The notes under the pieces: model-generated
Seen by the model: the letters and a program-made list of their open reading frames with translations, nothing else
Database searches by the model: none
Told to the model about the DNA's origin: nothing
Source of the DNA: Metarhizium brunneum
Lineage: Eukaryota; Ascomycota; Sordariomycetes; Hypocreales; Clavicipitaceae
Direction of reading: 5' to 3'
Assembly: GCF_013426205.1 (NCBI RefSeq)
Contig: NC_089423.1
Span: 5,084,001 to 5,148,000 of the forward strand
Length of the DNA: 64,000 nt
Made by a program: the position numbers and the translations under genes
In this document: one piece after another, positions 27,161 to 64,000 of the stretch
How positions within the stretch are numbered: the stretch's first letter is position 1
Layout: every line of letters begins with the position of its first letter

Positions 27161-27558
27161 ATAATAGAAGTATTATTAGAATAAGATATTCTAGGATATT
27201 ATATAGTTTATAAGGAATTACTACTATTATAATAAGTATAAAAGCTACTAGCTTTAATAAAAACTATTATAACTTATATTAGTTATAAACTAGTACTAGT
27301 TATAAATCTTAATTAACTTTATAATAAACTTTTTAGCCTAAAAAAAAAATATTAAGTACTTAATAATTATTATAAACTAATTATTTAAATATATTTAGCT
27401 TAAAGCTATAATATTAATAAAAGCTAAAATATATATAAAATACTTTAAATAATATTAATAAAAGTTTTATAAATTTTTTATATAAATTATTATAAATTAA
27501 AAATTAAATTAATTAAGTAAGTTTTAAATAATATTATATATATTAATAAGAATTATAT

Positions 27559-28347: not shown

Positions 28348-28880
28348 AGAATTATATAACTTTTTTTTATAATATATTACTCTTAAATAAATAATAAAAT
28401 AAAAAGGGTAAATTAAAAAGTATAAGTAGTTTTATAAATTATAATTAGCTTTAAATAATTTAATTAAACTAAATATTTTATAGCTTATTAATTAATATTA
28501 AATAATTATAACTTAATAATAACTAAAATAAGCTTAAATAAAGCTTTATATAAGTTTAATATACTTTTAATTTAAAAATCTTTTTACTTATATAAGTTTA
28601 TAATTTTACCTAAAGGTAAAATAATTATATTTATTAATTACTTATAAAAGGGAATTAACCTAGCCTAAATTATTATAATATTTAACTAATAATAATTCTA
28701 GAACTTAATAAATAAATAATAATAATTTATAAAAAAGTTTAAAAAAGAAAATATTATATAATTAAACCTATATAATATTAAAATAAATAAACTAAGTAAA
28801 AAACTAAACTAAATTATAATAAAATATAAGGTTATAAAGGTATTATTATTATTAATTATTTAATTAAATATCTTAGAAAG

Positions 28881-29665
28881 TATTAAATTATAATAAAAAA
28901 ATAAAAAAAAGGCTAGTTAATTACCAGGACCTACTAATAATATAATTAATAGCTATACCTAGCTAATTAAATAATAATATATAATTAAAAAAATACTATA
29001 TATATATATTATAATATATTAAATCTATTAGCTTAAAAGGTAATTTATAACCTTATATACTAATAAAAGTTTATAACTTTATATATTAAAAATATATTAT
29101 ATAATAATAATAACTTATAATTATATAAGTTATACCCTAAAAAACTTAAAGTAATTTAATATAATATAAATTAATAAAGTTTATACCTAACTTTTATAAA
29201 ACTTATTATTTTCCTTATAATTACCTTATTTTACCTTTATATACCTAATTTAAATAAATTACTTTATAAAGTAATTACTTATAGGTTTCTAGCTTTATAT
29301 TACTTCTTAAAGTACTTACTAATATTAGACTTAGTTAGTAGTTAATAACCTAAAAAAAAAACTATAATTATAATTAATACTAAAGAAAGTAATAAGCTTA
29401 ATATAAATAAGTTATTTATTATAACTTTAAGAATTAAAGCTAATAAGCTTAAAAAAATAATAAAAAAGCTATTATTATAAAAAATATTAATAAGAAAAAA
29501 AATATATTATTAAAAACTAAAAATATTAAAAAAATTAATAAATTTAATAAAATAATTAAAAAAATAAAAAAAAAAAAAAAATAAAAAGGAAAATTAAGAA
29601 AAATATTATAAAGCTAGTTAATAAAAAGTAGCTTTATATTATAGTTTTCCCTTTTATTATAAAGG
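28881..29665 (-). repeat. Long inverted repeat, right arm
   Basis: Inverted partner of 27559-28347; it ends ATTATAAAGG at 29665. Directly after it begins truncated Gypsy copy E, so the inverted-repeat element, or a rearrangement involving it, has replaced E's left end. Confidence 0.75.
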
Positions 29666-32600
29666 GAAATATTAATATATTTTATTTTTTATTTTTATAT
29701 TTAGAATTTATTTTATTTTATATTTTATTTTATTTATAACTTTAATATTTTTTTTATTAATATATTATTTAATACTTTTTTAAAAAATAAAATATATATT
29801 ATAAAATAATTTCTTATAATTTTTAATAATAAAAGTTTATAATTATTTATTAATATTTATTTTTTAATAATAAATAATTCTAATTTTTTATAATTTAATT
29901 TATTACTTAATTATATTATTTTAATATTTTATTAAAGTAAATAAATTATATTTTTTTTTTAAAAATTAATTTTTTTAATTTTTTATAATTATAATATTAT
30001 ATTATTTTATTTTATATAAATTTTAATTTATATTATATTTTTTTATATAATTTTTTTAGTTTATTTATTTATAATATTACTTATTTTACTTATAATTTTT
30101 TATATTATATTTAAAATATTTTAAAATTAAATTTATAATTAATATAAGCTAATATTTACTTTATTAATTCTAATATTAAGTTATTATAAAATAATTATAT
30201 TATAAATAATTATTTAACTTAATTATTTTATTAATAATTAATATAATATTATAAATATTATTTAAGTATTTAATTTAATTTTTTTATTTATTTATTTATT
30301 TATAAATAATATATAATATTTAATTTATAATTTATTTTAAGTTATATTATAAATACTTATTAAAATTTAAAAATAAATATTTTTTTTTTATTTAATATAA
30401 TTTTTTTTAATAATTTATAATTACTTATTATTATTTATAAAAATATATATATAAATTCTTTTATATTATTTATTTTTTTATATAATAAAAAATATTTATA
30501 TTTTATAAATTTATTTATAATTATAAATATATTATTATATTTTATATTAATTATTAGTTTTTTTAATATTAATAATTTTATAATATAATTAAAAGCTATT
30601 AATGTTTATAATTATATTAATATTAATAATAATTATAATTTTTTATATAGCTTATATTATAAAGCCTTATTTTTTTTATATTATTAATATATTAATAAGT
30701 TTTATTAATATTATTAAATATTTAAATAATTTAAATTTTATTTTAAAAGCTATTATTTATTTATAATTTTTTTTTATTTAAATTAAATTATATATTTTTT
30801 TTAGGTTTATTATAATAAATTAATTTATATTATATAATTAATTTTATAATTCTAATATTAATAATAATAGTATTTTATTTTTTATAATAATTATATTTAA
30901 TTATTAATAATTTATTATTAATTATAATTTTTTATTTTTTTTTAAAATAAATATAATTAAATATTTAGCTTTTAATATTAATATTTTAATATAACTTTTT
31001 ATTAGTATTTTATTAATATATTTTTATAATATTTTAAGTTTTTTTATATTTAAATTATAAATTTTATAAAATATTATTAATTTTTTATTTATTAATTTAA
31101 TTTTATAATTTTATTAATTATATTTAAATAATTTAATTTTTAATTTTTTTATAAATAATTTTTTATATTTTTAATATTTTTTAAAAATATTTTTAAGTTT
31201 TTTTTTTTTTATTATTAAGTTTTTATTATTTTTATTATTTTTAATTTTTTTTTTTTTTAAGTTTTTTATTTATATTTATAAGATTTTTTCTTAAAATAAT
31301 AATAATTTTTTAAATTTTAACTTTTATTTTTTTATTACTTATTATTATTTATATTTTAATTTATAATATTATTAAAATTATTATAATAAATTTAATTATT
31401 TTTTTTTATATTTATTATTTTTATATTATTTATTTATTATTATTAATTTTTAAATAATTTACTTAAAAAAAATTTTTTTTTAAAATTTTATTTATAAGTT
31501 AAATTATAATAAAAAAATTTTTTTTTTTAAATTTTATTAATTTTATTAACTTAAAATTTTATTTTATTTTAATTAATTTATTTTTTAATTAATTAATAAG
31601 TTATTTTTTTATAATTATAAGTATTTTAATATTAAATTATATTTTAATATATTTATAATATTAAATTAAATTACTTTTAAATAATTTTAAATTTATATTT
31701 TAAAATAATTAATTTTTTAATTAATAATTTTATTATTATAAATAAAAAGTTTTTTTTTAATATTAATTAATTTATATAATATTTTTTTATATTTTTATAA
31801 TAATTAATAATAATTAATAATTTTAAGTAAAATATAATTACTTATTATATTATTATTTATAAGTATATAAATATAATATTTTATAATTTTAATATTTAAT
31901 ATTATTTTATTATTTTATTTTTTAATATTATTTTATAAGTTTAATTTTATTTTATAAGTATTTAAAATAAAACTTATTATTAAATATTTAATATAAATAA
32001 TTATAAATTTAATTTTTTATTTTTTTATATTTTTTATATTTTAAATTATTATAATTTATTATATATTTTTTATTATATTTAAAATTAAACTTTTATTTAT
32101 AATATTATTTATTTAGCTTTTATTTATTATAATATATTAATTTTATAATTTTTTTAAAAAATTTTTATTTAAATATATTTAATATTTATTATATTTATTT
32201 ATATATTATTAATATTTTATATTATTACTTATATTATTTTTTAGTTTTATTTATTATATATTTTAAGTAATTTAATAATAAATATATTATATAATTTTTT
32301 ATTTTATATTAAAATAACTTAAATAATAACTTTTTTTTATATATTAAAATTTTTTTTTTATATATATATTAATATTATTACTTATTTTTTATATATATAT
32401 ATAATTAATATATATTTAATTTATATATATTTATAAAATTTATATAAATTTAATATTTAATAAATATATTTAAATTAAATTTTAAAATTATTATTTAATT
32501 ATTATTAATTATTTTTATTTTTTATTTTAAAAGTTTTTATTTAAAATATAATATTTTAATTAAATATTTTTTTATTTTAATTAAAAATATATTTAATTAT

Positions 32601-34830
32601 ATTTTAATTATAAAATATACTTAATATATTATAAATATATATAATATTTATATTAATTATATATAATTTTTATATTTTAATAAAAGTTTAAAATTATTTT
32701 TTTTTTTTAAGTATTATAATATTAAATTTTTTAATATTATAATAATATTTATTATAATAATAAAAATTATAAAATATTTTTTTATTAATATAAAAAAATA
32801 TTATTATATAATTTACTTTTATATAATTATTAATTTTATTAATATTTTTTTTTATTTTATTTATTTTTAAATACTTTTAAAGTATTTAAAATTATATTAT
32901 TATTATTAATATTTATTTTTTTTATTTTATTTTTTAATTTATTAAAAAAAATAAAAATTTATATATTTTATTTTTTTTTATATTATTATTTTTTTTAAAT
33001 TTTTTTTATTTTTATTTATTATTATATTTAATTAAAAAATTTTTAATATAAGTTTTTATTTAAATATTTTAATAATTTTAATTTATAAAGTTTTTTTTAT
33101 TTTATTATTATAAAAGTTTTTTTTTTATTAATTATTTATTTAATTTTTTTTATATTAATTATTTAATTATTTATAACTTATTTTTTATAAAATTTATAAT
33201 TTTTTTTTTAGTTTTTTTAGTTTTTTTAAAAATTATTTTTTTTTATTTATTATTTATATAAATATAATAATTATTATTATAATAAAAAGTTTAATTAAAA
33301 TTTTTATATTTTACTTTTAATTTAATAATTTTATTTTTTTATTAATTAATAATATTAAGTTATTTTTTATTTTTTTTTAATATTAGTTTTTATTTTTTTT
33401 TAGGTTTTTTATATTTATTAATAAAATATTTTAGTTTTTTATAATTATAATATTTTTTTTTATTATTTTTTTTAATAATATTAAGCTTTATTTATTTAAA
33501 ATTAAAAATATAATTATAAATAATAAGTTTTTTTTATTTTTTTTTTAATTTACTTATTATTCTTTTTTTTTATAAAATTCTAGGTTTTTTTTTTTATTAT
33601 TTTTATATATATTATTAATATCATTTATTATTAATTTAAATTATTATTATTATATAATTTAAAAAGTTATTTAATATATTTTTTTTATATAATTTATTCT
33701 TAATTTTTTTTTTAATTTTTAAAAAAAATCTAATATAAATAGCTTATTTTTTTAATTTAATACTAAAATAACTTATTTAAAATATATTATATAATTTAAT
33801 ATAAATTCTTTTTATTTAAGTTAATTTATATAAATAATTATAATTTTTATTTTATTAATTAATTTAAATATTTTTTTAATTATTTTTTTAAATTTTTTAT
33901 AATTAATAAATATTTTTTTTATTTTATTTTTTTAATTATTTTTTATATTAATAAAATAATTTTATATAATTAATTTAAATTATATAAGTATAATATTTAT
34001 TATATATTTTTTAATATATAATACTTTTATTTATATATTAATTAACTTATTTAAGTAAAATTAATAATATATTTTAAGCTAAATTAAGAATTTTTAAAGT
34101 ATTTTTAAGTTATTATTATAAAATTTTAATATTTTAAGCTTAATAATTTTTTTTAAGTTTTTTTATTTTAATATAAATATTTAATATTTAAGGCTAAATT
34201 ACTTAACTTATTAATATAATTATATAAATTTAATTATAAAGTTTTAAGGTTTAAAACTTTAAAATGTTTAAAATATTAATAATATAATTATTTTAAATAA
34301 AATAAATATTATAAGTATTATTTTAATAATTATTAGATATTACTTAAAGTAATATAATAATTATTTAAATAAAAGCTTTTAATATATAATAGCTAAGATT
34401 TTTAAGAAATAAACTAATTATAATTTATATTAATAAAATAATTAAAATAATTAATTTAAGTAATTAATTATTATATTAATAATAAATTATAAATTATAAT
34501 TAAGTAATTAAAATTAAAAAGTTATAAATAAAGCTTATTTAATATAATAATTTATATTAAAAGCTAAAAAGCTAAAATTTATTTATAAAATAAATTTAAG
34601 GGTTTTTATATATTATAATATTTACTTATTATTTATTAAAGTTTTAATAAACTATAATTATATATATATTATTAGTTTATTTAAAGTTTATTAAATAATT
34701 AATAAACTTTTTTTTATTAATAGCTTATTTTAACTATTAATTTATTACTTATTATACTTATATTATCTTATAGCTTATATAGCTAGCCTAACTTATAACT
34801 TATATTATAGCTTATAACTAGATTATAATA
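29666..34830 (-). mobile_element. Gypsy copy E: RIP-destroyed, truncated, with an internal deletion
   Basis: This is the same chromovirus family as intact copy C, on the - strand. Similarity starts at the 3' end of pol (equivalent to about 57690 in C), so the 3' LTR and the antisense gene are missing. The 5' LTR is present at 34385-34830 (446 bp). Compared with copy D, about 1.25 kb is missing near 30690, between two TATTATTAATAT-like stretches, and about 145 bp is missing near 31925. With copy D it is the most heavily mutated member here. Confidence 0.85.
34385..34830 (-). repeat. LTR of copy E (5' LTR in element orientation)
   Basis: 446 bp, co-linear with the LTRs of copy D. It starts TATAATAGC (from TGTAACGGC) and ends TTATAATA (from CGTAACA). 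No matching target-site duplication can be tested because the other end is lost. Confidence 0.85.
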
Positions 34831-35729: not shown

Positions 35730-37304
35730 TAATATTCTTTTTCTTATAATTTTACTCTTAAAACCTAAGCTTTATTTTATAAATAGTTTTATTTACCTTT
35801 TCTTTTATTAGTTATAAATATTTTACTTTTTTATAATATCCTTTTTTTATTATATCTAATTATATAAAAAAACCTAAAAAATCTTATTTTATTATTAATT
35901 ATATTATAATTATTACTTTTATTTATAAATAAGATTTTAAGGTATTACCTTATAATTATTATTTTAAAAAAAAAAGTTTTTATTAGGTTATTAAAAGTAT
36001 TAGTTATTATACTTTTTATTATTTTTTAGGTTATTTTTATAATAATTTTTATACTTTTATAATAAATTATATATATAAGGTTTTTTTATTATAATATATA
36101 CTATTAATATATTCTAGTAAATTATATTATTAAGAAATTTTATTAGCTTAAAAAAAAGGAGAAATTAATAAAAAAACTATTAATTAAAAGGTATTATAAA
36201 GCTTAATTAAAAATAAATAAAGCTTTAAATTATTTAATATATTTTTAATATATATATTATTATTTATATAAAAAAAGTCTAAAAATAGCTTATTATAACT
36301 TTACTTTTTTAAAAGAAATAAAAAATATAAATTAAAAGAAAAAGAAAAAAAAAGCTTAAAAGTATAAATTAAAGTAAGTTTAATAATAAAAGTTTAAGGC
36401 TATTTAAAATACTTAAAACTAAGGTACTTTTAATATTTTAAACTAAAGCGCTTTACTTAACACTAAGTTATAAGCTACTAGTAATACTATTATAATAAAT
36501 ACTAGTAATTTTTTAGGTATTTTATAGGTTTTTATATATTTTTCTTATTTTTATAGTTTTTTTATTTAATAAGATATTAGTATATTTTATTTTTTATTTT
36601 TATATTTAAAATTTATTTTACTTTATATTTTATTTTATTTATAATTTTAATATTTTTCTTTATTAATATATTATTTAATACTTTTTTAAAAAGTAAAATA
36701 TATATTATAAAATAATTTTTTATAGTTTTTAATAATAAAAGTTTATAATTATTTATTAATATTTATTTTTTAATAATAAATAATCTTAATTTTTTATAAT
36801 TTAATTTATTACTTAATTATATTATTTTAATATTTTATTAAAGTAAATAAATTATATTTTTTTTCTTAAAAATTAATTTTTTTAATTTTTTATAATTATA
36901 ATATTATATTATTTTATTTTATATAAATTCTAATTTATATTATATTTTTTTATATAATTTTTTTAGTTTATTTACTTATAATATTATTTATTTTACTTAT
37001 AATTTTTTATATTATATTTAAAATACTTTAAGGTTAAATTTATAATTAATATAAGCTAGTATTTACTTTATTAATTCTAATATTAAGCTATTATAAGCTA
37101 ATTATATTATAAGTAATTATTTAACCTAATTATTTTATTAATAATTAATATAATATTATAAATATTATTTAAGTATTTAATTTAATTTTTTTATTTATTT
37201 ATTTATTTATAAATAATATATAATATTTAATTTATAATTTATTTTAAGTTATATTATAAATACTTATTAAAATTTAAAGGTAAATATACTTTTTTTATTT
37301 AATA

Positions 37305-44474: not shown

Positions 44475-46576
44475 TATAACGGCTTAGGTTCCTAAGGGAT
44501 AAACTAGTTATAGTTTATGTTAGCAGAGCTATTAAGGCAGTTAATCTAAGTAATTAAGTGTTATGTTAGTAATAGGTTATAAACCGTAATTAAGTAATTA
44601 AAGTTAAAGAGTTATAAGTAAAGCTTATTTAATATAATAATTAATATTAAAAGCTAAGAAGCTAAAGTTTATTTATAAAGTAAATTTAAGGGTCCTTATA
44701 TATTATAATTATTAGTTATTATAAAGGTAAGTATTCTTAATACTTACTTTTAAATATTAATAAGTATTATATATACTTACTTATAATAACTAAGCGTCCT
44801 TCTTATTAGTCTTATTATACTAACTAATATTCTATGGCCTATTATACCTATGCTGCCTAGCGGCTTTATATAGCTGGCCTAACTTATAGCTTATATACTA
44901 GGTTATAATATAATATCCCCTCTTTTATAGTCTTATCCTTAAGACCTAGGCCTTATTTTATAAGTAGTTTCTTTACTCTTTTCTTTTTATTAATAAGTTC
45001 CTTTTTCTTTTTATCCTTTATAATATCCTTTTAATACTATATCTAATTATATTATTATTCCTTATACCTAAAAGTAAAAAGATCCCTTATTAAAGGCTCC
45101 TTTTACCTTATAAAATAATTACTTAATTAATTTTATTAAATTATTTAGTTATAATATTATATTATATTCCTTTTATTTTGCCTATAGTTTTTATTATAAG
45201 ATAATTAAGCGTTCCTTTAAGTATAAGGAATATATATAATAAGGGCGTTCTTATAATACTTTTAGTGTTATAATTAGCTTATATAAATATTCTTTTTATA
45301 TATTATTATTTTTTATTAATAAGTATTTTTATAATTAATTATATTATTTTTAAATTAAAATATTTAAATTAAGAGGAAAAGAAAGTAAAAGAGTAAATAC
45401 TTAAGGCTTAAGTTAAGTTAAATAAAGCGCTGGCCTATTTAGCATAATTATACTATTAAAAGCAGTAATTAATTACTAAGGGTTAATAAATAACTTACTT
45501 AGGTTTATAATTACTAAATAAGTTAAAGGAGGAGAAGTATTATAAATCTAAGGCTATTATTAATATATAATTTCTAGGTACTATTAATATATTAGATTAG
45601 AATATTATGTTTAAGGATACCTTATTAAATATTACTGGTAATATTATTATAATAGGTACTAATAATTCTTTAGATGCTTTATAAGCTCCTATATATTTTT
45701 CTTATTTTTATAGCTTTTTTATTTAATAAGATATTAGTGTGTTTTATTTCTTATTCTTATATCTAGGATCTATTCTACTTTATATTCTATTTTATTTATG
45801 ACTTTAATATCTTTTTTTATTAGTATATTACTTAGTGCTTTTTTAAGGAGTAAAATATGTATTATAAGATAATTCCTTATAATCTTTAATAATAAAAGTT
45901 CATAGTTATTTATTAATATTTATTTTTTAATAGTAAATAGTCCTAATTTTTTATAATTTAATTTATTACTTAGTTATATTATTTTAATGTTTTATTAGAG
46001 TAAGTAAACCATGTCTTCCTTCTTAAAGATTAATCCCTTTAATCTTTTTTAATTATAGTATTATATTATTTTTTTTATATAAATTCTAGTTCATGTTATA
46101 TTTCTTTATATAATTTTTTTAGTTTATTTACTTATAATATTACTTATTTTCCTTATAGTCTTTTACGCTATATTTAAAATACTTTAGGATTAAATCTATA
46201 ATTAACATAAGCTAGTGTTTACTTTATTAATTCTAATATTAAGCTATTATAAGCTAATTATACTATAAGTAACTATTTAACCTAATTATCCTATTAATAG
46301 TTAATATAGTATTATAAATACTATTTAAGTATCTGGTTTAATCTTTTTATTTATTTATTTATTTATAGATAATATATAGTGCTTAACTTATAATTTATTC
46401 TAAGTTATATTATAAATACTTACTAAAACTTAGAAGTAAATATACTTTTTTTATTTAATATAATTTCTTTTAGTAGTCCATGGTTATTTATTATTATTTA
46501 TAAGAATATATATATAAGTTCTTTTATATTACTTACTTCTTTATATAGTAAAAAGTATCTATACTTTATGAGTTTA
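44475..46576 (-). mobile_element. Gypsy copy A, left part: LTR plus end of pol, RIP-mutated
   Basis: The 3' LTR is 44475-44910 (436 bp, starting TATAACGG). It is followed by a degraded antisense gene (about 45030-45690) and the 3' part of pol. The copy is cut at the sequence equivalent to about 58540 of copy C by insertion of copy B. Mutation is intermediate: many C-to-T changes but G and C still present. Confidence 0.9.
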
Positions 46577-47013: not shown

Positions 47014-50000
47014 TAATATCCCCTCTCTTATAGTCTTATCCTTAAGACCTAAGCCTTATTTTATAAGTAATTCCTTTATCCTTTTTTTTTTATTAATAAG
47101 TTCCTTTTTCTTTTTATCCTTTATAATATCCTTTTAATACCATATCTAGTTATACTATTATTCCTTATACCTAAAAGTAAAAAGATCCCTTATTAAAGGC
47201 TCCTTTTACCTTATAAAATAATTACTTAGCTAATTTTATTAAATTATTTAGTTATAATATTATATTATATTCCTTTTATTTTACTTATAGTCTTTATTAT
47301 AAGATAATTAAGCGTTCCTTTAAGTATAAGGAATACATATAATAAGGGCATTCTTATAATACTTTTAGTATTATAATTAGCTTATATAGGTGTCCTTTTT
47401 ATATATTATTATTTTTTATTAATAAGTATCCTTATAGTTAATTATATTATTTTTAAATTAAAATATTTAAATTAAGAGGAAAAGAAAGTAAAAGAGTAAA
47501 TACTTAAGGCTTAAATTAAGTTAAATAAAGCACTGGCCTGTCTAGCATAACTATACTATTAAAAGCAGTAATTAATTACTAAGGGTTAATAAATAACTTA
47601 CTTAGGTCTATAATTACTAGATAAGTTAAAGGAGAAGGAGTATTATAAATCTAAGGCTATTATTAATACGTAATTTTTAGGCGCTATTAACGTGTTAGAT
47701 TAAAACACTATATTTAGGAATACCTTATTAAATACTACTAGTAATACTACCATAATAGATACTAGTAATTTTTTAGGTGCTTTATAGGTTCCCATATATT
47801 TTCCTTATCTCTATAGCTTTTTTATTTAATAAGATATTAGTATGTTTTATTTCTTATCCTTATATTTAAAATCTATTTTACTTTATATTTTATTTTATTT
47901 ATAACTTTAATATCTTCTTCTACTAGTATATTATTTAATGCTTTCTTAAGAAGTAAAATATATATTATAAGATAATTCCTTATAGTCTTTAATAATAAAA
48001 GTTCATAGTTATTTATTAATATTCTTTTCTTAATAGTAAATAGTCCTAATTTTTTATAGTTTAATTTATTATTTAGTTATGTTATTTTAATATTTTATTA
48101 GAGTAGGTAGACCATATCTCCCTCCTTAAAAATTAGTCCCTTTAATCTTTTATAATTATAATATTATATTATTTTATTTTATATAAATTCTAATTTATGT
48201 TATATTTCTTTATATAATCTCTTTAGTTTATTTACTTATAGTATTACTTATTCTACTTACGGTCCTTTACATTATATTTAAAATACTTTAGGATTAAATC
48301 TATAATTAGTATAGGCTAGTGTTTACTTTATTAATTCTAATATTAAGCTATTATAAGCTAATTACGCTATAAGTAACTATTTAACCTAATTATCCTATTA
48401 ATAGTTAATATAATATTATAGATACTATTTAAGCATTTAGTTTAATCTTTTTATTTATTTATCTATTTATAGGTAATATATAATGCTTAACTTATGATTT
48501 ATTTTAAGTTATGCCATAAGTACTTACTAAAACTTAGAGGTAAATATACTTTTTTTATCTAATATAATTTCCTTTAGTAGCCTATAATTACTTATTATTA
48601 TTTATAAGAATATATATATAAGTTCTTTTATATTACTTACTTCTTTATATAGTAGAAAGTATCTATACTTTATAAGCCTATTTATAACCATAAATATACT
48701 ATCATATTTTATATTAATTATTAGTTCTTTTAATATTAGTAGCTTTATAATATAATTAAAAGCTATTGATTCCTATAATTATATTAGTACTAGTAATAGT
48801 TATAATTCTTTATATAGCTTATATTATAAAGCCTTACTTTTTTTGTATTATATATATTTATTAATAACCTTTTTAACCATTTTCTTAATTCCTAAGAAAT
48901 TATATTATTATTGTATTTTATTTAGTATTTTACGGATTCCTTAGTATTTGTAAACTAGGTGTTTATGTATTTCTTTAATGTATTCTTCTTGTAGTTCTAG
49001 AGGTATCTAGGTCTTTTTATAGTACTTTAGAATAGCTCTAGGTTCTATGAGATATTCTTCTAGTATATCTATAAACCTGACCTTTTTTTTTGCTTATTAT
49101 TAGATTTTCTTATATACTAGGTCTTTATCCTATACCTTTAGTATAGCATTTAGTTACCTTTACTAAAAATTACTATTTTTATTAATCTTAAGGAGTTATC
49201 TTATTACTATAAGTACTCTTATATTATAATTACTTCTTTAACTTAAAGCGTCTACTTATTTATTCTTAGATCCTTTTTAATAAATAATTTCATAGTTAAA
49301 TTCTAAAAGATATTTAGCCTATTAAATTTATTATTTATTTAATTATTATATTATTATAAAGTAAAAGATATTCTTATGATTAGTATATACCTTAACTTTA
49401 TATTTACTCCTTATAAGGTAATATTTAAATTCCTTAAAAGTATTAATAATTACTAGGAATTCTTTATTATAAATAAGGTAATTAAGTTTTACTCTATGAA
49501 GTTTCTTTAAGTAAAACATAATAAGATATAATTTTTTATTATTATCTTATTATTTAACTTATACTCTTAAAGTAAAGTCTAATATATTAGTTTTTAGTTC
49601 TATTTCCTTTTTTAGGTTAAAAGTTCTTAAAATAAGTTTAAATATAATAAGTTCTTTAATCTTATTAAAGGCATATTACACCTTATTACTTTAATTCCAC
49701 TACTTATCCTTCTTAGTAAGTTTATCTAAGGGTGCTATAATTTTACCGTAGCTCTTAATAAATCTCTTATAATAATTTATAAAGCCTTTAAAGCTTTATA
49801 TGTTTTTAATATTTTTTAGTATTAGCTAGTTCCTTACTGCCTTTATCTTAGATTTTTTTATTTATATTTTATTTAGTTATATTATATGTCCTAAAAAGTC
49901 TATTTCCTGTGTATAGAACTTATATTTTACTAGTTTAATTAATAGCTTAGCATTTTATAGCGTTTTTAGTATTATATATATATGTTCCTTATAGTCTTCT

Positions 50001-56439: not shown

Positions 56440-56875
56440 TGTAACGGCTAAGGTTCCCAAGGGATAAACTAGTCGTAGTTTATGTTGGCAGAGCCACTAG
56501 GGCAGTCAATCTGAGCAGTTGGGTGTTACGTTGGTAATAGGTCGTAGACCGTAACCAAGTGATCAGAGTCAAAGAGTTGTAAGCGAGGCTTATTCAATGT
56601 AATGATCTGTGTTGAAAGCTAAGGAGCTAGAGGCTATCTATGAAGCGAATTTGGGGGTCCCTATATACTACGGTTGCTAGTTATCGCGGAGGTGAGCATC
56701 CTCGATGCTCACTTCCAAACACTGGTGAGCGTTGTGCATGCTCACTTATAATAACTGAGCGTCCTTCCCATTGGTCCTGTCGTGCCGACCAATGTTCCGT
56801 GGCCCGTCATGCCTGTGCCGCCCGGCGGCTCCATGCAGCCGGCCCATCCTGCAGCCTACGTGCTGGGTCGTAACA
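56440..56875 (-). repeat. Copy C 3' LTR (436 bp)
   Basis: On the + strand it runs TGTAACGGC...GTCGTAACA, i.e. TG...CA ends in either orientation. In element orientation, a TATATA at 56662-56667 lies about 42 bases before the predicted transcript start near 56620. Two adjacent palindromes built on GTGAGC/GCTCAC lie at 56692-56712 and 56725-56745, in what would be U3. Confidence 0.95.
56611..56620 (-). promoter_or_regulatory. Predicted self-primer segment / R start in the LTR
   Basis: In element orientation this reads AGCTTTCAAC. It is perfectly complementary to the primer-binding site next to the 5' LTR (63804-63813). In Tf1-type elements the first bases of the transcript fold back onto such a site. 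The transcript start is inferred from this pairing, not seen. Confidence 0.65.
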
Positions 56876-56880
56876 CGATG

Positions 56881-56891
56881 TCCCCTCTCCC
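56881..56891 (-). other. Polypurine tract (plus-strand primer)
   Basis: In element orientation GGGAGAGGGGA lies five bases upstream of the 3' LTR, the expected position for the primer of second-strand synthesis. Confidence 0.8.
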
Positions 56892-57003
56892 ATGGTCTTG
56901 TCCTCAAGACCTAGGCCTTGTTTCATAAGTAGTTCCTCTGCCCTTTTCTTTTCGTTGGTAAGTTCCTCTTTCTTTTCATCCTTTGTGATGTCCTTCTGAC
57001 GCC

Positions 57004-57649
57004 ATGTCCAGTCGTACCGTCGTTCCTCGTACCCGAAAGCGAAAAGATCCCTCGTTGAAGGCTCCTTCTACCTTACGGAACGATCGCTTGGCTGATTCCA
57101 TTGAATCGTTTGGTTACGACGTCATGCCGTGTTCCTTTTGTTCCGCCCGTGGTCTTCGTTGCAAGATGATTGAGCGTTCCTCCAAGTGCGGGGAATGCGT
57201 GCGGCGGGGGCGTTCCTGTGATGCTTCTGGTGTCGCGATTAGCTCGCGTAGGTGTCCTTTTTGTGTGTCACTGTTTTTTGCTAATGAGTGTCCTTGTAGT
57301 TGGTCGCATTATTTCCGAATCGAAACGTTTGGATCAGGAGGAAGAGAGAGCGGAAGAGCAAATGCTCAAGGCTCAGGCTGAGTTGAATGAAGCGCTGGCC
57401 CGTCTAGCGCGACTGCGCCGCCAAAAGCGGCAGTTGGTTACCAAGGGTCAACAAATGACTCGCTTGGGTCTGCAATCGCTGGATGAGTTGGAGGAGGAGG
57501 AGCGTCGCGAATCCGAGGCTGTTATCGATGCGCAATCTCTAGGCGCTATTGACGTGTTGGATTGGAACGCTGTGTTTGGGGATGCCTTGTTGAATGCTGC
57601 TGGTGATACTGCCGTAATAGGTGCTGGCAATTCTTCAGGTGCTCCGTAG
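57004..57649 (+). CDS. Antisense element gene: Zn2Cys6-like cluster plus coiled coil, 197 aa, one intron
   Basis: This gene runs opposite to gag-pol, between the 3' LTR and pol. Exons 57004-57247 and 57300-57649 are joined by a 52-bp intron (GTAGGT, branch-like CTAAT near 57281, TAG) that keeps the frame through a split Leu codon. The N-terminus is basic (RTRKRKDP). Residues ~43-72 hold C-x2-C-x6-C-x8-C-x2-C-x6-C (CSFCSARGLRC ... CGECVRRGRSC), which fits the spacing of fungal Zn(II)2Cys6 DNA-binding clusters. Exon 2 begins a long heptad-patterned coiled coil (EEERAEEQMLKAQAELNEAL), then QSLDELEEEERRESE and a hydrophobic VLDWNAVFGDALL tail. The last 104 bases overlap the 3' end of pol. Similar Cys-cluster/coiled-coil frames recur in fungal Gypsy elements as I recall; function is unknown. 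A DNA-binding regulator is inference. Confidence 0.72.
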
Positions 57650-60600
57650 GTTCCCATGTGTTTTCCTCGTCTCCATAGCTTTTCCATTTAATGAGATATT
57701 GGCGTGTTTTGTTTCTTGTCCTCATGTCTAAGATCCGTTCTACTTCATATTCCGTTTCGTTCATGACTTCGATGTCTTCTTCTGCTGGTGCATTGTTTGG
57801 TGCTTTCTCAAGAAGTGAAATGTGTACTATAGGATGATTCCTCATAGTCTTTGGTAATGAAAGTTCGTAGTTGTTTGTCGATATTCTTTTCTTGATAGCG
57901 AATGGTCCTAATTTTTTGTAGTCCAATTTGTCGCTTGGTCGCGTTGTTTTGATGTTTCGTCGGAGTAGGTAGACCATGTCTCCCTCCCCAAAGATTGGTC
58001 CCTTCGATCTTTTACGATTATGGTATTGTGCCATTCTGTTTCGTACGAATTCCAATTCGTGTCGCATTTCTTCGTGCAATCTCTTCAGTTCATCTGCTTG
58101 CAGCATCGCTCGTTCTGCTTGCGGTCCTTCGCGCTGTGTTCGAAATACTTCGGGATTAAATCCGTAATTGGCGTAGGCTGGTGTTTGCTTTGTCGATTCT
58201 GATATCGAGCTATTGTAAGCCAATTGCGCTGTAGGTAACCATTTAACCCAATCGTCCTGTTGATGATTGATGTAACATCGTAGATACTGTTCAAGCGTCT
58301 GGTTCAATCTTTCCGTCTGTCCATCTGTCTGTGGATGGTATGCGGTGCTTAACTTGTGATTCGTTCCAAGTTGTGCCATAAGTGCTTGCCAAAACTTAGA
58401 AGTAAATGTACTTCCTCTGTCCGATATGATTTCTTCTGGCAGTCCATGGTTACTTGCTATTGTTCGTAAGAACACATATGCAAGTTCTTCTGCATTGCTT
58501 GCTTCTCTGTACGGTAAAAAGTATCCGTATTTTGTGAGTCTATCCGTGACCACGAATATGCTGTCATATTCCACGTTGGTCATTGGTTCTTTTGACATTG
58601 GTAGCTTCGTAATATGATCGAAAGCTATCGATTCCCATGGTCGTGTTGGTACTGGTAATGGTTGCAGTTCTCCGTATGGCTTATGTCGTGAAGCCTTACT
58701 TTTTCCGCATTGTATGCATTCGTTGACAACCTTTTCGACCATTTTCTTGATTCCTGAGAAATCGTATTGTCGTCGTATCTTATCCAGTGTCTTGCGGATT
58801 CCTTGATGTCCGTAGACTGGATGTTCATGCATTTCTTTGATGCATTCTTCTTGTAATTCTGGTGGTATCCAGATTTTCTCTCCATACATTGGTACTCCTC
58901 CTGGGTGGCATGTGCATCCCGTCGGTACGTCCCCAATGTGTTGTATATTGTCTGTTGCCCATTGGTGTATTTTGCCGTATACTGGGTCTTCTTTCTGTAC
59001 TTTCAATATGGCATTCAGTTGTTTCTGCTGGAAATTGCCATTTTTATTGATCTCAAGGAGTGGTCCTGTTGCTGTAGGTACTCCTGTATCGTAGTCGCTT
59101 CTTCGACTTAGAGCGTCTGCTCGTCCGTTCTCGGATCCTTTTCGATGGATGATTTCGTAGTCGAATTCTGAAAGATATTCGGCCCATCGAATTTGTCGTC
59201 CATTCAATTGTTGCGTCGTCGCAAAATGAGAGATGTTCTTATGATCGGTATACACCTTAACTTTGTGTTTGCTTCCCATGAGATAGTGTCTAAATTCCTT
59301 GAAAGCATTGATGATTGCTAGGAATTCTTTGTCGTAGATGGGGTAGTTGAGTTCTGCTCCATGAAGTTTCTTCGAGTAGAACGCAATAGGGTGTAGTTTT
59401 CCGTCATCGTCTCTTTGTCCAACTTGTGCTCCTAGAGCAAAGTCTGATGAGTCGGTTTCTAGTTCCGTTTCTTTTTCTGGGTCGAAGGTTCTCAAAACAG
59501 GTTCGGATGTGATGAGTTCTTTGATCTTGTCAAAGGCACATTGCGCCTCATCGTTCCAATTCCACTGCTTATCCTTCTTGGTGAGTTCATCCAAGGGTGC
59601 TGCGATTTCGCCGTAGCTCTTGATGAATCTCCTGTAATAGTTCGCAAAGCCTCTAAAGCTTTGTATGTCCTTGACATTCTTCGGTGTTGGCCAGTTCCTT
59701 ACTGCCTCAATCTTTGTCTTTTCCATTCGTATCTCGTTTGGTCGTATCGTGTGTCCTAGGAAGTCTACTTCCTGGGTATGGAATTTGCTTTTTGCTGGTT
59801 CCACTAGTAACTTCGCGTCTTGTAGCGCTTGTAGTACCTTGTGTACATGTCTTTTGTGGTCTTCCAGGGTTTTTGAGAAGATCAGTATATCGTCCAGATA
59901 CACTACCACAAAATTGTCCAAATATTTTCGTAGTACGCTGTTGATCATTCGTTGGAATGTCGCTGGTGCGTTGGTAAGCCCGAATGGCATTACCAGGTAT
60001 TCGAATAGTCCGAACTTCGTTCTAAAGGCTGTCTTCCATTCATGGCCTTTCTTTATTCGAATCAAATTGTATGCTCCCTTCAGGTCCAAAGCGGTGAACC
60101 AATTCATTCCGTGCAATCGGTCCCGTAGTTCCGATATTAGTGGCAACGGTGTTCGATCCTTCATGGTAATCGCGTTCAATCGCCGATAGTCCACTACTAA
60201 CCGCAGTTTCCCGTTTTTCTTTGGAACAAACATAACTGGGTATCCAGCTTCTGATGTGGATGCTCTGATGTAGCCTTTCGCTAACATCTCGTCGATGTAC
60301 TCCCGTAGTGTTTCGAGTTCTCTTGCGTTTAAGTTGTAAATCTTATGGAATGTTGTCGACTTTCCGTCTATCAATTCAATCTGATGATCCCATTGGCTGT
60401 GTTCTGGTAATCCGGTTTCTAATTCTTCTGCGAATAATTTTTCGTATTTCCGGTATTCCTTAGGGATATTCTTGAGTCTTTCTTCTTTCGTTATTGGGCT
60501 TTTGTCGTCTTTATCGTTCTCGTTCCTCTTTTCTCCTTCGAGTTTCTTGTTTGTGTTCGCGAGGTCTTTCCTTAAGGTGGCAATAACCTTTCGGATCTTG

Positions 60601-61370
60601 GCTTTTGTCTTCTTGTTGCTTATTGTTGTTCGTATCCCGGTTTGTAGCGCCGTCGAGGTCGTTACGGTGGATCCAATTGTTTTGACTGCTTTTCTGCCGC
60701 TTGTTTGTTGTCGTTGGTCCTTGGATAACTTGCTTGAAGGTTCTTTTTCTTCAGAACTCTGTTCATGAGCTAAGTTATGACGAAATTTCGTTCTTTCTTC
60801 CGAATTCTGCTGATTCTGTTGGCCTGAAGTCTCGTTCCACTTCAGTTGGCCTGTCCTCCAGTTGATCAGTGGGTTACTCTCCCATAACCATGGGTACCCT
60901 AACACTAGGTCGTGTTCCGATACGTCCATAACATCGAGTTGAATCACTTCTGAATGACTTTGAATCTGTACTTCGAGATGATCAGTCTCTTGGTTAATGA
61001 TTCCGTCATTATAGGCAAAAAGTTTTCCTTCGATATCAGTTAACTCGTATGGTGCCTCTTTGTGTTTCCACGGTAGTTGGTAACGATTCACAACTCTGGG
61101 TGAGATATAGTTGCCCATCGCGCCACTGTCCACAAGTATGCGAACGCGATGTCCCATGACTTCGGCGTCTAATACCATTTTGTCGCTTCGTCCGTTCTGG
61201 GTTGCGTTGAGGGTCATTAGCGTCTTTCTTTTCATGCCAGCCTGTAGCCCTTTTACAGATGGCGTGCCTCGTTTTTTGAGTTTTCCGGAATAGATTCTTC
61301 TGCGATTTGTCGTTTCATTTCTTGGTACCATTCTGTAGGTCCAGTTCCGTTTTGCGGGTGCTTGAAGCAA
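57546..61370 (-). CDS. pol: Pol polyprotein (PR-RT-RNase H-IN-chromodomain), expressed by -1 frameshift from gag
   Basis: This is the pol open frame of copy C, 1274 codons, ending at TAA-type stop 57548-57546. It lies in the -1 frame relative to gag and is entered at the slip site 61277-61271, so residues upstream of KKRGTPSVKG are probably not translated in this frame. The protease has DSG (residues 81-83). Reverse transcriptase has PVMFVPKKNGKLRLVVDYRR, FRTKFGLFEYLVMPFGLTNA and YLDD (near 59900). RNase H has ETDSSDFALGAQV and YTDHKN. Integrase has the HHCC zinc domain (H-x-H-PVYGH ... CIQCGKSK) and a DDE core (FDHITKLP, IISDRGSTF, TDGQTERLNQTLE). A GPY-type region is followed by a chromodomain (QYLIKWKSYGDEENTWEP). 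All catalytic residues are present, so the element looks competent. Confidence 0.97.
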   Translation of the reverse strand: MLQAPAKRNWTYRMVPRNETTNRRRIYSGKLKKRGTPSVKGLQAGMKRKTLMTLNATQNGRSDKMVLDAEVMGHRVRILVDSGAMGNYISPRVVNRYQLPWKHKEAPYELTDIEGKLFAYNDGIINQETDHLEVQIQSHSEVIQLDVMDVSEHDLVLGYPWLWESNPLINWRTGQLKWNETSGQQNQQNSEERTKFRHNLAHEQSSEEKEPSSKLSKDQRQQTSGRKAVKTIGSTVTTSTALQTGIRTTISNKKTKAKIRKVIATLRKDLANTNKKLEGEKRNENDKDDKSPITKEERLKNIPKEYRKYEKLFAEELETGLPEHSQWDHQIELIDGKSTTFHKIYNLNARELETLREYIDEMLAKGYIRASTSEAGYPVMFVPKKNGKLRLVVDYRRLNAITMKDRTPLPLISELRDRLHGMNWFTALDLKGAYNLIRIKKGHEWKTAFRTKFGLFEYLVMPFGLTNAPATFQRMINSVLRKYLDNFVVVYLDDILIFSKTLEDHKRHVHKVLQALQDAKLLVEPAKSKFHTQEVDFLGHTIRPNEIRMEKTKIEAVRNWPTPKNVKDIQSFRGFANYYRRFIKSYGEIAAPLDELTKKDKQWNWNDEAQCAFDKIKELITSEPVLRTFDPEKETELETDSSDFALGAQVGQRDDDGKLHPIAFYSKKLHGAELNYPIYDKEFLAIINAFKEFRHYLMGSKHKVKVYTDHKNISHFATTQQLNGRQIRWAEYLSEFDYEIIHRKGSENGRADALSRRSDYDTGVPTATGPLLEINKNGNFQQKQLNAILKVQKEDPVYGKIHQWATDNIQHIGDVPTGCTCHPGGVPMYGEKIWIPPELQEECIKEMHEHPVYGHQGIRKTLDKIRRQYDFSGIKKMVEKVVNECIQCGKSKASRHKPYGELQPLPVPTRPWESIAFDHITKLPMSKEPMTNVEYDSIFVVTDRLTKYGYFLPYREASNAEELAYVFLRTIASNHGLPEEIISDRGSTFTSKFWQALMAQLGTNHKLSTAYHPQTDGQTERLNQTLEQYLRCYINHQQDDWVKWLPTAQLAYNSSISESTKQTPAYANYGFNPEVFRTQREGPQAERAMLQADELKRLHEEMRHELEFVRNRMAQYHNRKRSKGPIFGEGDMVYLLRRNIKTTRPSDKLDYKKLGPFAIKKRISTNNYELSLPKTMRNHPIVHISLLEKAPNNAPAEEDIEVMNETEYEVERILDMRTRNKTRQYLIKWKSYGDEENTWEPTEHLKNCQHLLRQYHQQHSTRHPQTQRSNPTRQ
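61236..61263 (-). promoter_or_regulatory. Frameshift-stimulating stem-loop
   Basis: In element orientation the sequence starts seven bases after the slip site. GCCA pairs with TGGC and CTGTA with TACAG around the loop AAAGGGC, with a small internal loop. Spacer length and position are typical of -1 frameshift stimulators. A pseudoknot was not worked out. Confidence 0.65.
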
Positions 61371-63751
61371 AACCCATCGTCAAACATTTGACATAGGCGA
61401 TTGTAAATTTGGTTTTTCATTTCTCCGTGTTTTTCGCATCTTGGGTTGTCGCAGTTTACCGCATATTTCCTGTTGCATCTGGGGTTGAACTTCTGTTCGT
61501 TGTACCACTTATCCAACTGTTGTTCACTGTGGTATGTTGATTCTGTGGTTCCCCTGGGGTCTTTCTGTTCGAGTATGTCTAATGCTCGCTGTGTCCGTTT
61601 GTATGCTGCTGGTGTTCCACATTGCCACTTGTGCCATTCCCTGGCCTTATCTACCATATGTTCTGAACAATTAGGTAGTGGGCATACCATGTGGTCTTTT
61701 GTTTCACATCGAGGTGACTTGAGTAGTAACTCCCTTCTGTGTGTTGGGATTTTTCCCTCATACACATACTGATGCCACTGCCTGTTCTTCGTATGTACAT
61801 GTAACTGGCATGTGTCTGATTCACATACGTCCGTAGGATCTGTATGAGCTCGGCATTTGATGGGTGTGTTTGAATCGGGTTCCAAGATCATCGTTTGATC
61901 GTTATTGATTATCTTCACTCTCCATTCTAGGAGTTCCCATCTGAAGTATGGTGCTTTGATCGGATATCCTTTCATCCTGATCGGAAACGCATCCAATCGT
62001 GCCTTGGTTTGAAAGTGTGCCTGGCACATTGCAAACGCGCATGATGCCCATGCTAAACGTGTATGTTCCGCGTGTCTTGGTGAGAGTCTAGGATCGTCTT
62101 CCTTCTCTCCTTCCGGAAACCATAGTGTCTGGTTTTCCATTGCCGTGGTGGTGTCCACTGCTAGAATAGGAATTGCGAAATGTTTTCCTGTTGGTGCGGG
62201 GAAATATCGCTGTACAGCTTGTTCTTGTGTGGCTGTCAGCCTTGCAGGCGTTTCTTCCTCGCTTCGTTCGTCTTCGGACGCTTCTGGAGTATCTAGGATT
62301 GCGTTGTCGTCATCGACGCTCATTTCCCTTACTCTATCTTCCGGTTCGTCGAAGGTGGTGAGGATTTGTGCGTCTTGCTCCTCCCTATATTGTTGTTCCC
62401 TTCGATTCTTCCTTGCTTCTGCTTGTTGTCGCACCCAATCGAGAATTTCTTGGTGCGAGTCTTCGTCCAAATATTCTGGCGATTTTGGTTCATGGAGTTC
62501 CTTTCGTCCCGTCATTGCAAGCGTTCTCTTTTCCATTGATTGTTCGTCCAGGTCTTCTTGTACCAGTTGTTTGGCTACTTGCAGTCCGTTTCCTATGAAG
62601 TTCATAATTTTCTTCTTTGGTTTTCTTGGTTCTTTTGGAAACCATCCTCTTTCTTGTTTGCTGCTCATGTGAACGTAGCAGTTGTCGTCATAGCAGAAGG
62701 TCCAGTTGAGGTTCTTATGTTCCACCTCTGATTCGGTAACTTCGATTTTCTGTTGGTTAGTAGAATTGAGTTGTTTCTTACCTCCTTCTGGTACTGGCTT
62801 CCATTCTTTCCTGGGTTTCTTGCATTTATTGGCGAAATGTCCTGGTTTTCCGCAGTTGTAGCATTTCTTTTCCTTTTTGTCGTCTTTCTTGGTAGCGTCA
62901 AGCTCCATTCGTCCAGGGTTAAGAGTGTGACCATAGGCAATAGGTTCGTCACGCTTTCTGCGTTGATTGGCTTGGTAACTCTTCCCTTTGGCAGGGCTCC
63001 AGGTTCCTTTACCCTGTTTCTTCTGTATGCGTCGCTGATACTGTCTGTCGTCGATTCGTACCGCCATAGCGATGTAGTCCGATAAGTTGTCTGGTCTGTT
63101 CTCCCTGTAGAGTTCATCTTTGACTTCTTCCTTAAGTCCTTTATAGAAAGCTGACATAAGAGGTTCGTCCTCCCAGTCAAGCTGAGATGCAAGTTGTCTG
63201 AAGCGAGCGGCATAATCGGATGCCGATCCCTTCTGCTTGAGCCCGTCGATGTAGTACTCAGCAGCCCTAGCTTCGTCAACTGTTCCAAAGGCCTTTTTGA
63301 TAGCTTTTTCGAATTCATCGTAACTTTCGAAAATGGTGTTGGTTTCTTCTTCGCGGTCGTCTTTTTCTTTGTTAAGGTAGTCCCTCATAATGGGTTCAAA
63401 CCATGCGAGTGCCACTCCCGTCATACACCCTCCTGCGTGCAGTACCTTGGCAGAGGATTCTTCCATTTTGGTCGGGAATTGTCGGTGGTAAGCCCTGAGT
63501 TGAGTGAGGAATCCTTGAAGCGCACCCGGGGATCCGTCGTACGGTCCTGGTGCCCTGGGTCTAAGGATTTCTCCCAAGTCCTTTTTAATTGTGGCCGCAG
63601 TCGTGGCTTGTTCCTGCCGTTCTTCTTCCATCTGTTGGACCCGTTCCCGAAGGCGTATGATCTCAGCAAGCATGTCGTGAGCAGAGATGGTGGTTGGTCC
63701 CTCTCGGGTTTCATTGGATCCAGATGCGGTGGTAGTCTCGCGTGGTGCCAT
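61253..63751 (-). CDS. gag: Gag polyprotein with zinc knuckle and three extra Cys/His repeats, 832 aa
   Basis: This is the structural protein of copy C. The ATG at 63751 (MAPRETTTASG) is the first in the frame. An acidic coiled coil (DMLAEIIRLRERVQQMEEE) precedes the retrotransposon-type capsid region (VALAWFEPIMRDYLN, YYIDGLKQKGSASDYAARFRQL). Next come a basic linker and a CCHC knuckle, CYNCGKPGHFANKC. An unusually long C-terminal extension follows. It includes three copies of C-x(7 or 9)-C-x4-C-x2-H: ending CESDTCQLH (about 61801-61856), CPLPNCSEH (about 61658-61712) and CDNPRCEKH (about 61427-61482). The frame ends at TAA 61255-61253, 118 bases inside the pol frame. Confidence 0.93.
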   Translation of the reverse strand: MAPRETTTASGSNETREGPTTISAHDMLAEIIRLRERVQQMEEERQEQATTAATIKKDLGEILRPRAPGPYDGSPGALQGFLTQLRAYHRQFPTKMEESSAKVLHAGGCMTGVALAWFEPIMRDYLNKEKDDREEETNTIFESYDEFEKAIKKAFGTVDEARAAEYYIDGLKQKGSASDYAARFRQLASQLDWEDEPLMSAFYKGLKEEVKDELYRENRPDNLSDYIAMAVRIDDRQYQRRIQKKQGKGTWSPAKGKSYQANQRRKRDEPIAYGHTLNPGRMELDATKKDDKKEKKCYNCGKPGHFANKCKKPRKEWKPVPEGGKKQLNSTNQQKIEVTESEVEHKNLNWTFCYDDNCYVHMSSKQERGWFPKEPRKPKKKIMNFIGNGLQVAKQLVQEDLDEQSMEKRTLAMTGRKELHEPKSPEYLDEDSHQEILDWVRQQAEARKNRREQQYREEQDAQILTTFDEPEDRVREMSVDDDNAILDTPEASEDERSEEETPARLTATQEQAVQRYFPAPTGKHFAIPILAVDTTTAMENQTLWFPEGEKEDDPRLSPRHAEHTRLAWASCAFAMCQAHFQTKARLDAFPIRMKGYPIKAPYFRWELLEWRVKIINNDQTMILEPDSNTPIKCRAHTDPTDVCESDTCQLHVHTKNRQWHQYVYEGKIPTHRRELLLKSPRCETKDHMVCPLPNCSEHMVDKAREWHKWQCGTPAAYKRTQRALDILEQKDPRGTTESTYHSEQQLDKWYNEQKFNPRCNRKYAVNCDNPRCEKHGEMKNQIYNRLCQMFDDGFCFKHPQNGTGPTEWYQEMKRQIAEESIPENSKNEARHL
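61271..61277 (-). promoter_or_regulatory. -1 ribosomal frameshift slip site A AAA AAC
   Basis: In the gag frame the codons are TCA AAA AAC, so the heptamer A AAA AAC stands in the correct phase. Slipping back one base enters the pol frame at KKRGTPSVKG, upstream of the protease. The heptamer is the canonical eukaryotic -1 type, and it sits 16 bases before the gag stop codon. Confidence 0.88.
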
Positions 63752-63803
63752 GTTGACAGTTATCAGGTATTGCTCAGAGTGACGCGGTAGTAGTCTGAAC
63801 AAG

Positions 63804-63813
63804 AGCTTTCAAC
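63804..63813 (-). other. Primer-binding site of copy C (self-priming type)
   Basis: In element orientation GTTGAAAGCT starts two bases after the 5' LTR end. It is complementary over all ten bases to AGCTTTCAAC inside the LTR (56620-56611; also 63995-63986). I did not find a comparable match to a tRNA 3' end. Tf1/sushi-group elements prime reverse transcription this way. Confidence 0.7.
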
Positions 63814-63814
63814 G

Positions 63815-64000
63815 TGTAACGGCTAAGGTTCCCAAGGGATAAACTAGTCGTAGTTTATGTTGGCAGAGCCACTAGGGCAGTCAATCTGAGCAGTTGGGTG
63901 TTACGTTGGTAATAGGTCGTAGACCGTAACCAAGTGATCAGAGTCAAAGAGTTGTAAGCGAGGCTTATTCAATGTAATGATCTGTGTTGAAAGCTAAGGA
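63815..64000 (-). repeat. Copy C 5' LTR, first 186 bases (continues past the window)
   Basis: It is identical base for base with 56440-56625. In element orientation this is the R-U5 end of the 5' LTR. Confidence 0.97.

Follow-up and report, generated by a model that had tools for sequence, protein, structure and literature searches.

What might be encoded by an intron-bearing gene that runs antisense to gag and pol at the 3′ end of a retrotransposon, and how could such an element keep an intron? The question is raised by a 64,000-nucleotide stretch of the Metarhizium brunneum genome (NC_089423.1, positions 5,084,001 to 5,148,000; hereafter, the window), in which a complete and recent Ty3/Gypsy chromovirus, located at 56440-64250 (the window ends at 64000, inside the element), carries such a gene between the end of pol and the 3′ long terminal repeat (LTR). 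The reading that we favour with moderate confidence, from sequence comparison, is that this spliced antisense accessory gene encodes a Zn2Cys6-like protein that would bind, as a dimer, the U3 region of its own element, with gene and target forming a regulator-operator cassette that would be inherited and exchanged jointly.

The antisense gene and its predicted product

The element was assigned to the Ty3/Gypsy chromoviruses on the basis of its reverse transcriptase-RNaseH-integrase order, C-terminal chromodomain, LTRs, and target site duplication. It contained the Pfam domains RVT_1, RNaseH, rve, Chromo, gag, and CCHC; its two LTRs, of 436 bp each, were identical, and the target site duplication TTAAG was found on both sides. 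The antisense gene lies at 57004-57649, on the plus strand. A first-pass annotation of the window had stated that its reading frame survives splicing, and joining 57004-57247 to 57300-57649 did indeed give a protein of 197 aa. Other GT-AG pairs in the gene likewise leave an open frame; the intron at 57248-57299 was preferred because its junction matches those of the relatives described below. As in other antisense open reading frames (aORFs) of LTR elements, the conserved frame is situated between pol and the 3′ LTR, here also overlapping the pol C-terminus by 104 nt of exon 2. No minus-strand frame of more than 64 codons was open across 56876-57545, so that the conservation of this stretch is not the by-product of another long gene.

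A search of the genome (37.8 Mb, 7 contigs) revealed at least 17 near-identical copies of the gene (type fam1), 15 of them identical across all 646 nt; of the two others, one had an extra G in the G-run of exon 1, which causes a frameshift, and one lacked a T within the intron. In the latter (L017, G000:C3:438878-439522), the shorter intron merges the exons into a single open frame of 219 aa, which may reflect a sequencing difference. All 17 fam1 copies listed retained the intron. Because it lies on the strand opposite to the genomic RNA, in whose sense copy it is invisible, the intron should survive retrotransposition, an argument that the first-pass annotation had made and that is upheld here. 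Two further types of element, fam2 and fam3, carried the gene with an intron that interrupts the same Leu codon in the same phase (52 nt in fam1, 49 nt in fam2, and 58 nt in fam3); the gene, conserved, antisense, and intron-bearing in three types of this genome, does belong to the element family, as had been claimed. Intron length equalled 1 mod 3 in all three types, and retention would thus shift the frame in each; in the window gene, the unspliced frame (57004-57378) would yield 125 aa, with the zinc cluster and without the coiled coil. At G000:C3:4550281-4565164, two tandem fam1 elements (L016 and L006) seemingly share their middle LTR, with U3 matches spaced 7377 and 7375 nt apart.

The six cysteines to which Zn(II)2Cys6 spacing had been attributed were confirmed at 57130-57219. 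Their spacing, C-X2-C-X6-C-X9-C-X2-C-X6-C, fits the six-Cys pattern of PF00172, which is C-X2-C-X6-C-X5-12-C-X2-C-X6-8-C. It was unique to this site in the window, where the matches at 57130 and 57187 overlap, and absent from all 200 mononucleotide shuffles of the element interior. The proposed coiled coil was supported by a hydrophobic periodicity in the window protein that peaked at 3.5 residues per turn, and by models of two relatives, each with a long helix. For the relative P0010, modelled by AlphaFold2 with alignment A3 (143 rows; mean predicted local distance difference test, pLDDT, of 87), short helices were predicted right after Cys 1 and Cys 4, followed by a 59-residue helix. For the divergent relative P0084 with alignment A2 (7 rows; pLDDT 75), the prediction had the same plan, its long helix spanning 76 residues. 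Foldseek returned four matches for the P0010 model, of which a Pho7-DNA complex ranked first (E 0.95) and the other three were unrelated proteins. All seven matches of the P0084 model (E 0.33-3.3) were to what we take to be Zn2Cys6 factors, namely Hap1, Lac9, Gal4, Pho7 twice, Put3, and a CBF3 subunit.

Relatives of the window protein were numerous. The first protein search identified 52, and profile searches gave 92 and then 174 proteins (the best 120 were used), for a total of at least 215 relatives; a loose six-Cys pattern was present in 173 of the 215 listed. The closest named relatives were from Metarhizium; others came from Cordyceps, Beauveria, Hirsutella, Fusarium, Colletotrichum, Verticillium, Pyricularia, Gaeumannomyces, Cytospora, Cryphonectria, Apiospora, and several Chaetomiaceae, presumably all Sordariomycetes. 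Alignment A1 (38 rows) comprised the window protein and 37 of the 52 first-search relatives, which were not picked by motif; the 15 records left out were shorter or partial, and two of these, P0021 and P0031, hold the whole or part of the cluster. Each of the six cysteines was conserved in 36-38 of the 38 A1 members, which counters the possibility, raised in the first-pass annotation, that they are not conserved, and D169 and W170 were each found in 36. Of the 39 first-search records that reached 150 aa or more, 34 had strict spacing. A dissimilar insert, with conserved sequence on either side, occupied the intron site in 14 database copies that were unspliced and had been selected for the purpose. 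Three Pyricularia oryzae relatives (P0128, P0164, and P0167) bear the public name "hypothetical protein, variant", which may reflect transcript evidence.

The layout was also shared. In every family of this genome where tblastn detected the gene, it was antisense to the pol end. The 63-aa C-terminal tail of the Pyricularia protein P0153 matched the antisense translation of the window pol end (E 8e-10), and its gene is probably antisense to a chromovirus pol end as well, judging from this match. Tails of P0044, P0132, P0150, P0176, and P0196 aligned with the end of the gene and the following sequence here (E 0.001-0.01).

These data bear on three alternatives. That the frame opened by chance antisense to pol has a probability close to negligible: nothing more than the 104-nt overlap speaks for it, and it is contradicted by the shuffles, by the location of both the cysteine cluster and the coiled coil outside pol, and by conservation across the family and across species. 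It is very improbable that the antisense RNA is the functional product, as a source of double-stranded RNA or through transcriptional interference, and that the open frame means nothing. Silencing can be fed by antisense transcription of LTR elements (PMC7264820), as this alternative would have it, but conservation was seen at the protein level, in the six cysteines, the D-W motif, and the intron site, and for every pair of types, codon positions ranked 2>1>3 in conservation. Recent capture of a host transcription-factor gene, with no lasting role in the element, is also very improbable: Zn2Cys6 proteins are established as a fungal host family and the exon structure is retained, yet the relatives are broad and divergent, their spread over many genera speaks against recent capture, and several element types of this genome, as well as probably one in Pyricularia, have the gene antisense to pol. 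Any capture would be old.

Element types and candidate operators in U3

To cancel the effect of repeat-induced point mutation (RIP), types were compared by R/Y identity, which considers purine/pyrimidine state only, with L058 as the fam2 reference and L025 as the fam3 reference. Besides RIP-degraded copies, the genome held at least 17 copies of fam1, at least 8 of fam2, and at least 3 of fam3. For fam1-fam2, fam1-fam3, and fam2-fam3, respectively, R/Y identity was 99.7, 99.5, and 99.4% in pol and 98.7, 98.3, and 97.9% in R-U5. It fell to 63.6, 65.3, and 75.0% in a U3 island (56674-56805) and to 69.6, 67.7, and 68.9% in exon 1. Exon 2 outside pol had values of 77.2% (fam1-fam2) and 66.4% (fam1-fam3), and exon 2 a value of 67.3% for fam2-fam3. 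Plain identity of inner U3 (56674-56775) was 28, 34, and 47% for the three type pairs, and the antisense proteins shared 42, 34, and 33% identity in one BLAST direction (42, 31, and 30% in reverse). Within types, R/Y identity was 98.3-100% in all regions, for three fam2 pairs and for fam1 compared with the RIP-degraded L018 and L019; the U3 island reached 100% among the compared fam2 copies and between fam1 and L018/L019. The antisense proteins of the three types fell into different clades: fam1 grouped with P0005 and Chaetomiaceae (support 0.97), fam3 with P0061, P0062, P0065, and P0067 (0.95), and fam2 with P0074 (0.99). We read these sequence differences between types as module replacement and not as slow drift.

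U3 type and gene type agreed in all 32 elements in which both could be typed: 20 of fam1 type (17 intact copies, L018, and two copies in the window, at 44474 and 46577), 9 of fam2 type (8 copies and the window copy at 35283), and 3 of fam3 type. Outside this count were U3 matches without a typed partner (two exact fam1 LTRs, taken as solo; three degraded fam1-like; three fam3-like; and a fam2-like match at 34619 in the window) and 7 of 38 pol ends, all degraded.

An unusually long palindrome was present in each U3 island. The longest arms were 9 nt in fam1, 11 nt in fam2, and 10 nt in fam3, lengths equalled in 1, 0, and 0 of 500 dinucleotide shuffles. In fam1, four GTGAGC hexamers form two GTGAGC-N9-GCTCAC sites, and GTGAGC occurs once in the 6,938 nt of fam1 internal sequence. 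The fam2 hexamer, GTGAAC, occurs four times in L058 (2-5 times across the 8 copies), with GTTCAC-N10-GTGAAC sites, two in L057 and one in L058. In fam3, three GTGATC hexamers make up one N11 dyad and a lone half-site. The hexamers of the other types were absent from each of the three U3 types. The top hexamer count was equalled in 1 of 500 shuffles for fam1, and in 2 (L058) or 0 (L057) of 500 for fam2.

Under the regulator-operator reading, antisense transcription from a promoter within or close to the 3′ LTR would give rise to a spliced mRNA, whose Zn2Cys6-like product would dimerise via its coiled coil. In U3, immediately upstream of the sense TATA, the dimer may bind the type-specific palindromes made of GTGAnC half-sites; it could then regulate sense gag-pol transcription from the 5′ LTR as well as its own gene from the 3′ LTR. 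We lean towards an activator over a repressor, because the acidic-aromatic tail is conserved. The first-pass annotation had suggested control of LTR transcription by the protein, an idea to which the agreement of U3 and gene types and the type-specific U3 palindromes lend indirect support. Regulator gene and U3 target would be passed on and swapped as one 3′-terminal cassette, possibly if the first strand moves at R to another RNA molecule and a single template switch follows near the pol end. More tentatively, fungal chromoviruses may carry exchangeable "immunity-like" cassettes, in which an antisense zinc-cluster dimer is coupled to its own palindromic GTGAnC operator with a type-specific base. 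If so, cassette replacement would give a nearly identical element a new regulatory identity, with which it could escape control by resident copies and start an amplification burst.

Several results weigh against this reading. At the protein level, the window protein scored 11.2 bits against Pfam Zn_clus, below the gathering cut-off of 21 (P0010 scored 18.1 bits); Zn_clus was matched at E ≤ 0.01 by just 6 of 38 A1 members and 7 of 143 A3 members, and none of the Foldseek matches was significant by E-value for either model. "Zn2Cys6-like" is the proper claim for the window protein, which misses formal Pfam membership. The structure prediction suggested by the first-pass annotation gave models with a zinc-cluster plan for two relatives, with this missed cut-off and the weak Foldseek matches to be set against it.

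At the DNA level, the leader and the LTR end were intermediate in divergence (R/Y identity of 90-97%): 90.2% (fam1-fam2) and 96.8% (fam1-fam3) for the leader, and 97.1 and 94.2% for the LTR end. The last 30 nt of the U3 island had plain identities of 60, 50, and 63%; the three types grow more similar towards its right end, where it grades into the conserved end of the LTR. The fam2 and fam3 U3s were partly related (50.8% identity, R/Y identity of 75.0%, and 46.8% in the inner part); they are closer to each other than either is to fam1, which slightly lowers our confidence in a cassette. Among 21 palindrome control regions, R-U5 of the three families had 8-nt arms equalled in 13-17 of 500 shuffles, one pol piece gave 3 of 500, and another pol piece and the LTR end plus leader of two families gave 26-27 of 500. 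The fam3 hexamer alone was not significant (59 of 500 shuffles), and the likeness of the hexamers among the three types, found in 37 of 5000 shuffled triples, comes from a post hoc test. The 5′ part of gag (63140-63740, minus strand) also diverged between fam1 and the fam2-type window copy, more weakly than U3 and the gene, with R/Y identities between 0.64 and 0.89 per 100-nt step over 63139-63639 (about 0.65 is expected at random); it can still be aligned in part and, on this comparison, may be a further type-specific module. Other single low R/Y steps in gag-pol were partly shared with a fam1-type control and are probably indels. Finally, because copies within a type share descent, the 32 concordant elements amount to about three independent pairings, and since gene and U3 adjoin, linkage alone, without function, could explain them.

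Adjacency, the divergent 5′ gag, and the similarity kept between the fam2 and fam3 U3s all favour an alternative that we consider unlikely, though far from negligible: a real functional protein that acts elsewhere, in integration-site choice with the chromodomain integrase, anti-silencing, or host gene control, while the U3s diverge independently and are merely linked to the gene. U3-centred modular evolution in Tnt1 (PMC1838419) is in line with this explanation. What speaks for the regulator-operator reading instead is that type-specific palindromes with related half-sites (GTGAG/A/TC) sit exactly where the sequence changes with the gene.

Degraded copies and features of the window

The first-pass annotation had also reported degraded equivalents of the gene in other copies within the window. 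For the copies at 44474 and 46577, the same gene was found, with an R/Y identity to the fam1 gene of 1.00 (rounded). The divergent copy at 35283 turned out to carry a different gene type, matching fam2 elements at an R/Y identity of 1.00. The eight fam2 gene copies all contained stops, and L061 had lost the start codon and donor, which fits RIP. Elsewhere in the window, RIP-degraded repeats at 30001-34000 had an extremely low GC content, about 2-3% per 2 kb, and a large inverted repeat was observed in AT-rich DNA at 27546-29678 (arms of more than 700 nt, in pieces, with 82-94% complementarity). The coordinates of the features are collected in the table.

Table. Positions of the chromovirus, its antisense gene, and related features in the window.
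Feature	Positions	Strand	Basis or remark
Ty3/Gypsy chromovirus	56440..64000 (on to 64250, past window end)	-	gag-pol on minus strand
3′ LTR	56440..56875	-	identical to 5′ LTR in L026
Conserved LTR part, R-U5 and TATATA	56440..56673	-	98-99% R/Y identity, fam1 versus the other two types; U3/R boundary approximate
U3 island, type-specific, proposed operator region	56674..56805	.	R/Y identity between types
Palindrome GTGAGC-N9-GCTCAC, copy 1	56692..56712	.	palindrome search
Palindrome GTGAGC-N9-GCTCAC, copy 2	56725..56745	.	palindrome search
Further inverted repeat in U3 island, 8-bp arms	56769..56794	.	palindrome search
Leader, LTR to antisense ATG	56876..57003	+	contains the element's probable polypurine tract (minus strand)
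Antisense gene, exon 1	57004..57247	+	open reading frame and relatives
Zn2Cys6-like cluster CSFCSARGLRCKMIERSSKCGECVRRGRSC	57130..57219	+	motif match, conservation
Intron, 52 nt, GTAGGT...GCTAATG...TAG	57248..57299	+	phase 1 within Leu codon; GCTAATG branch-like
Antisense gene, exon 2	57300..57649	+	final 104 nt overlap pol C-terminus
Predicted coiled coil, about aa 84-152	57305..57511	+	models of two relatives; hydrophobic periodicity
Acidic-aromatic motif in the tail, conserved around D169-W170; may serve in activation	57551..57574	+	D and W each in 36/38
pol, chromodomain at C-terminus (aa 1208-1257)	57546..61370	-	Pfam
gag open reading frame with CCHC knuckle	61253..63802	-	Pfam; 5′ end (about 63140-63740) divergent, fam1 versus fam2-type copy
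5′ LTR, interrupted by window end (to 64250)	63815..64000	-	LTR identity
RIP-degraded fam2-type antisense gene, copy at 35283	35852..36363 (end approximate)	+	exons at 35852, 36118; fam2 U3 at both LTRs (35518, 43041)
RIP-degraded fam1-type antisense gene, copy at 44474	45039..45580 (end approximate)	+	exons at 45039, 45335; fam1 U3 at 44709
RIP-degraded fam1-type antisense gene, copy at 46577	47142..47787	+	exons at 47142, 47438; fam1 U3 at 46812, 54198

Comparison with known systems

LTR elements with antisense genes (brtn, plant aORFs, and HBZ) or with modular U3s (Tnt1) are already known. The brtn gene, described from Boty-like elements of Botrytis cinerea (Zhao et al. 2011, via PMC8365987, PMC4227169, and PMC5987419), is, like the window gene, an additional antisense gene in an ascomycete chromodomain Gypsy element; the consulted passages of these three papers mention neither a zinc cluster nor a U3 pairing, and the likeness is one of description. 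The plant aORFs of Grande (gene23), RIRE2, and Retand share with the window gene an antisense position between pol and the 3′ LTR, and some of their products are nuclear, with a function that the source calls undetermined (PMC7264820). Unlike the window gene, they are described as having no clear similarity to other proteins, and the words zinc and intron are absent from the main text of that paper. The latter also cites an antisense promoter in the 3′ LTR of human T-cell leukaemia virus (HTLV). No report that assigns the antisense gene to the zinc-cluster proteins, describes its breadth across Sordariomycetes, or pairs it with U3 was found in the literature searched.

The protein families differ as well. 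HBZ of HTLV-1 is an antisense, spliced, leucine-zipper regulator encoded at the 3′ end of a retroelement; it is a basic leucine zipper (bZIP) protein, whereas the window protein is Zn2Cys6-like and had no bZIP match in Pfam at E ≤ 1. With Gal4, Hap1, Put3, and Pho7 (PF00172), the window protein has in common the cysteine spacing, the predicted cluster plan, and a coiled coil after the cluster. It differs from the classical Zn2Cys6 regulators, which bind CGG triplets, in falling below the Pfam cut-off, in being encoded by a retroelement, and in its candidate half-sites, GTGAnC.

For U3, the nearest comparison is Tnt1, whose subfamilies combine a conserved coding part with differing U3 modules (PMC1838419). 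The change of U3 on a conserved coding part is common to both systems; no partner gene of U3 is mentioned in the consulted passages of that paper, and such U3 turnover without an antisense gene is a further point against a cassette. The antisense gene described here belongs to a family that is widespread in fungi and whose DNA-binding architecture is recognisable, and a concrete candidate target lies in the same element, which makes the role of such genes directly testable.

The proposed joint exchange recalls, by analogy, repressor immunity. In the immunity regions of lambdoid phages, repressor and operator are exchanged as a unit. Those are DNA phages; the present system is a retroelement, whose regulator may be an activator or a repressor. 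If the regulator-operator reading is true, it would show how an LTR retrotransposon can hold both an intron and a gene for its own transcription factor, and the joint exchange of a regulator with its operator may then occur in retroelements as it does in phages.
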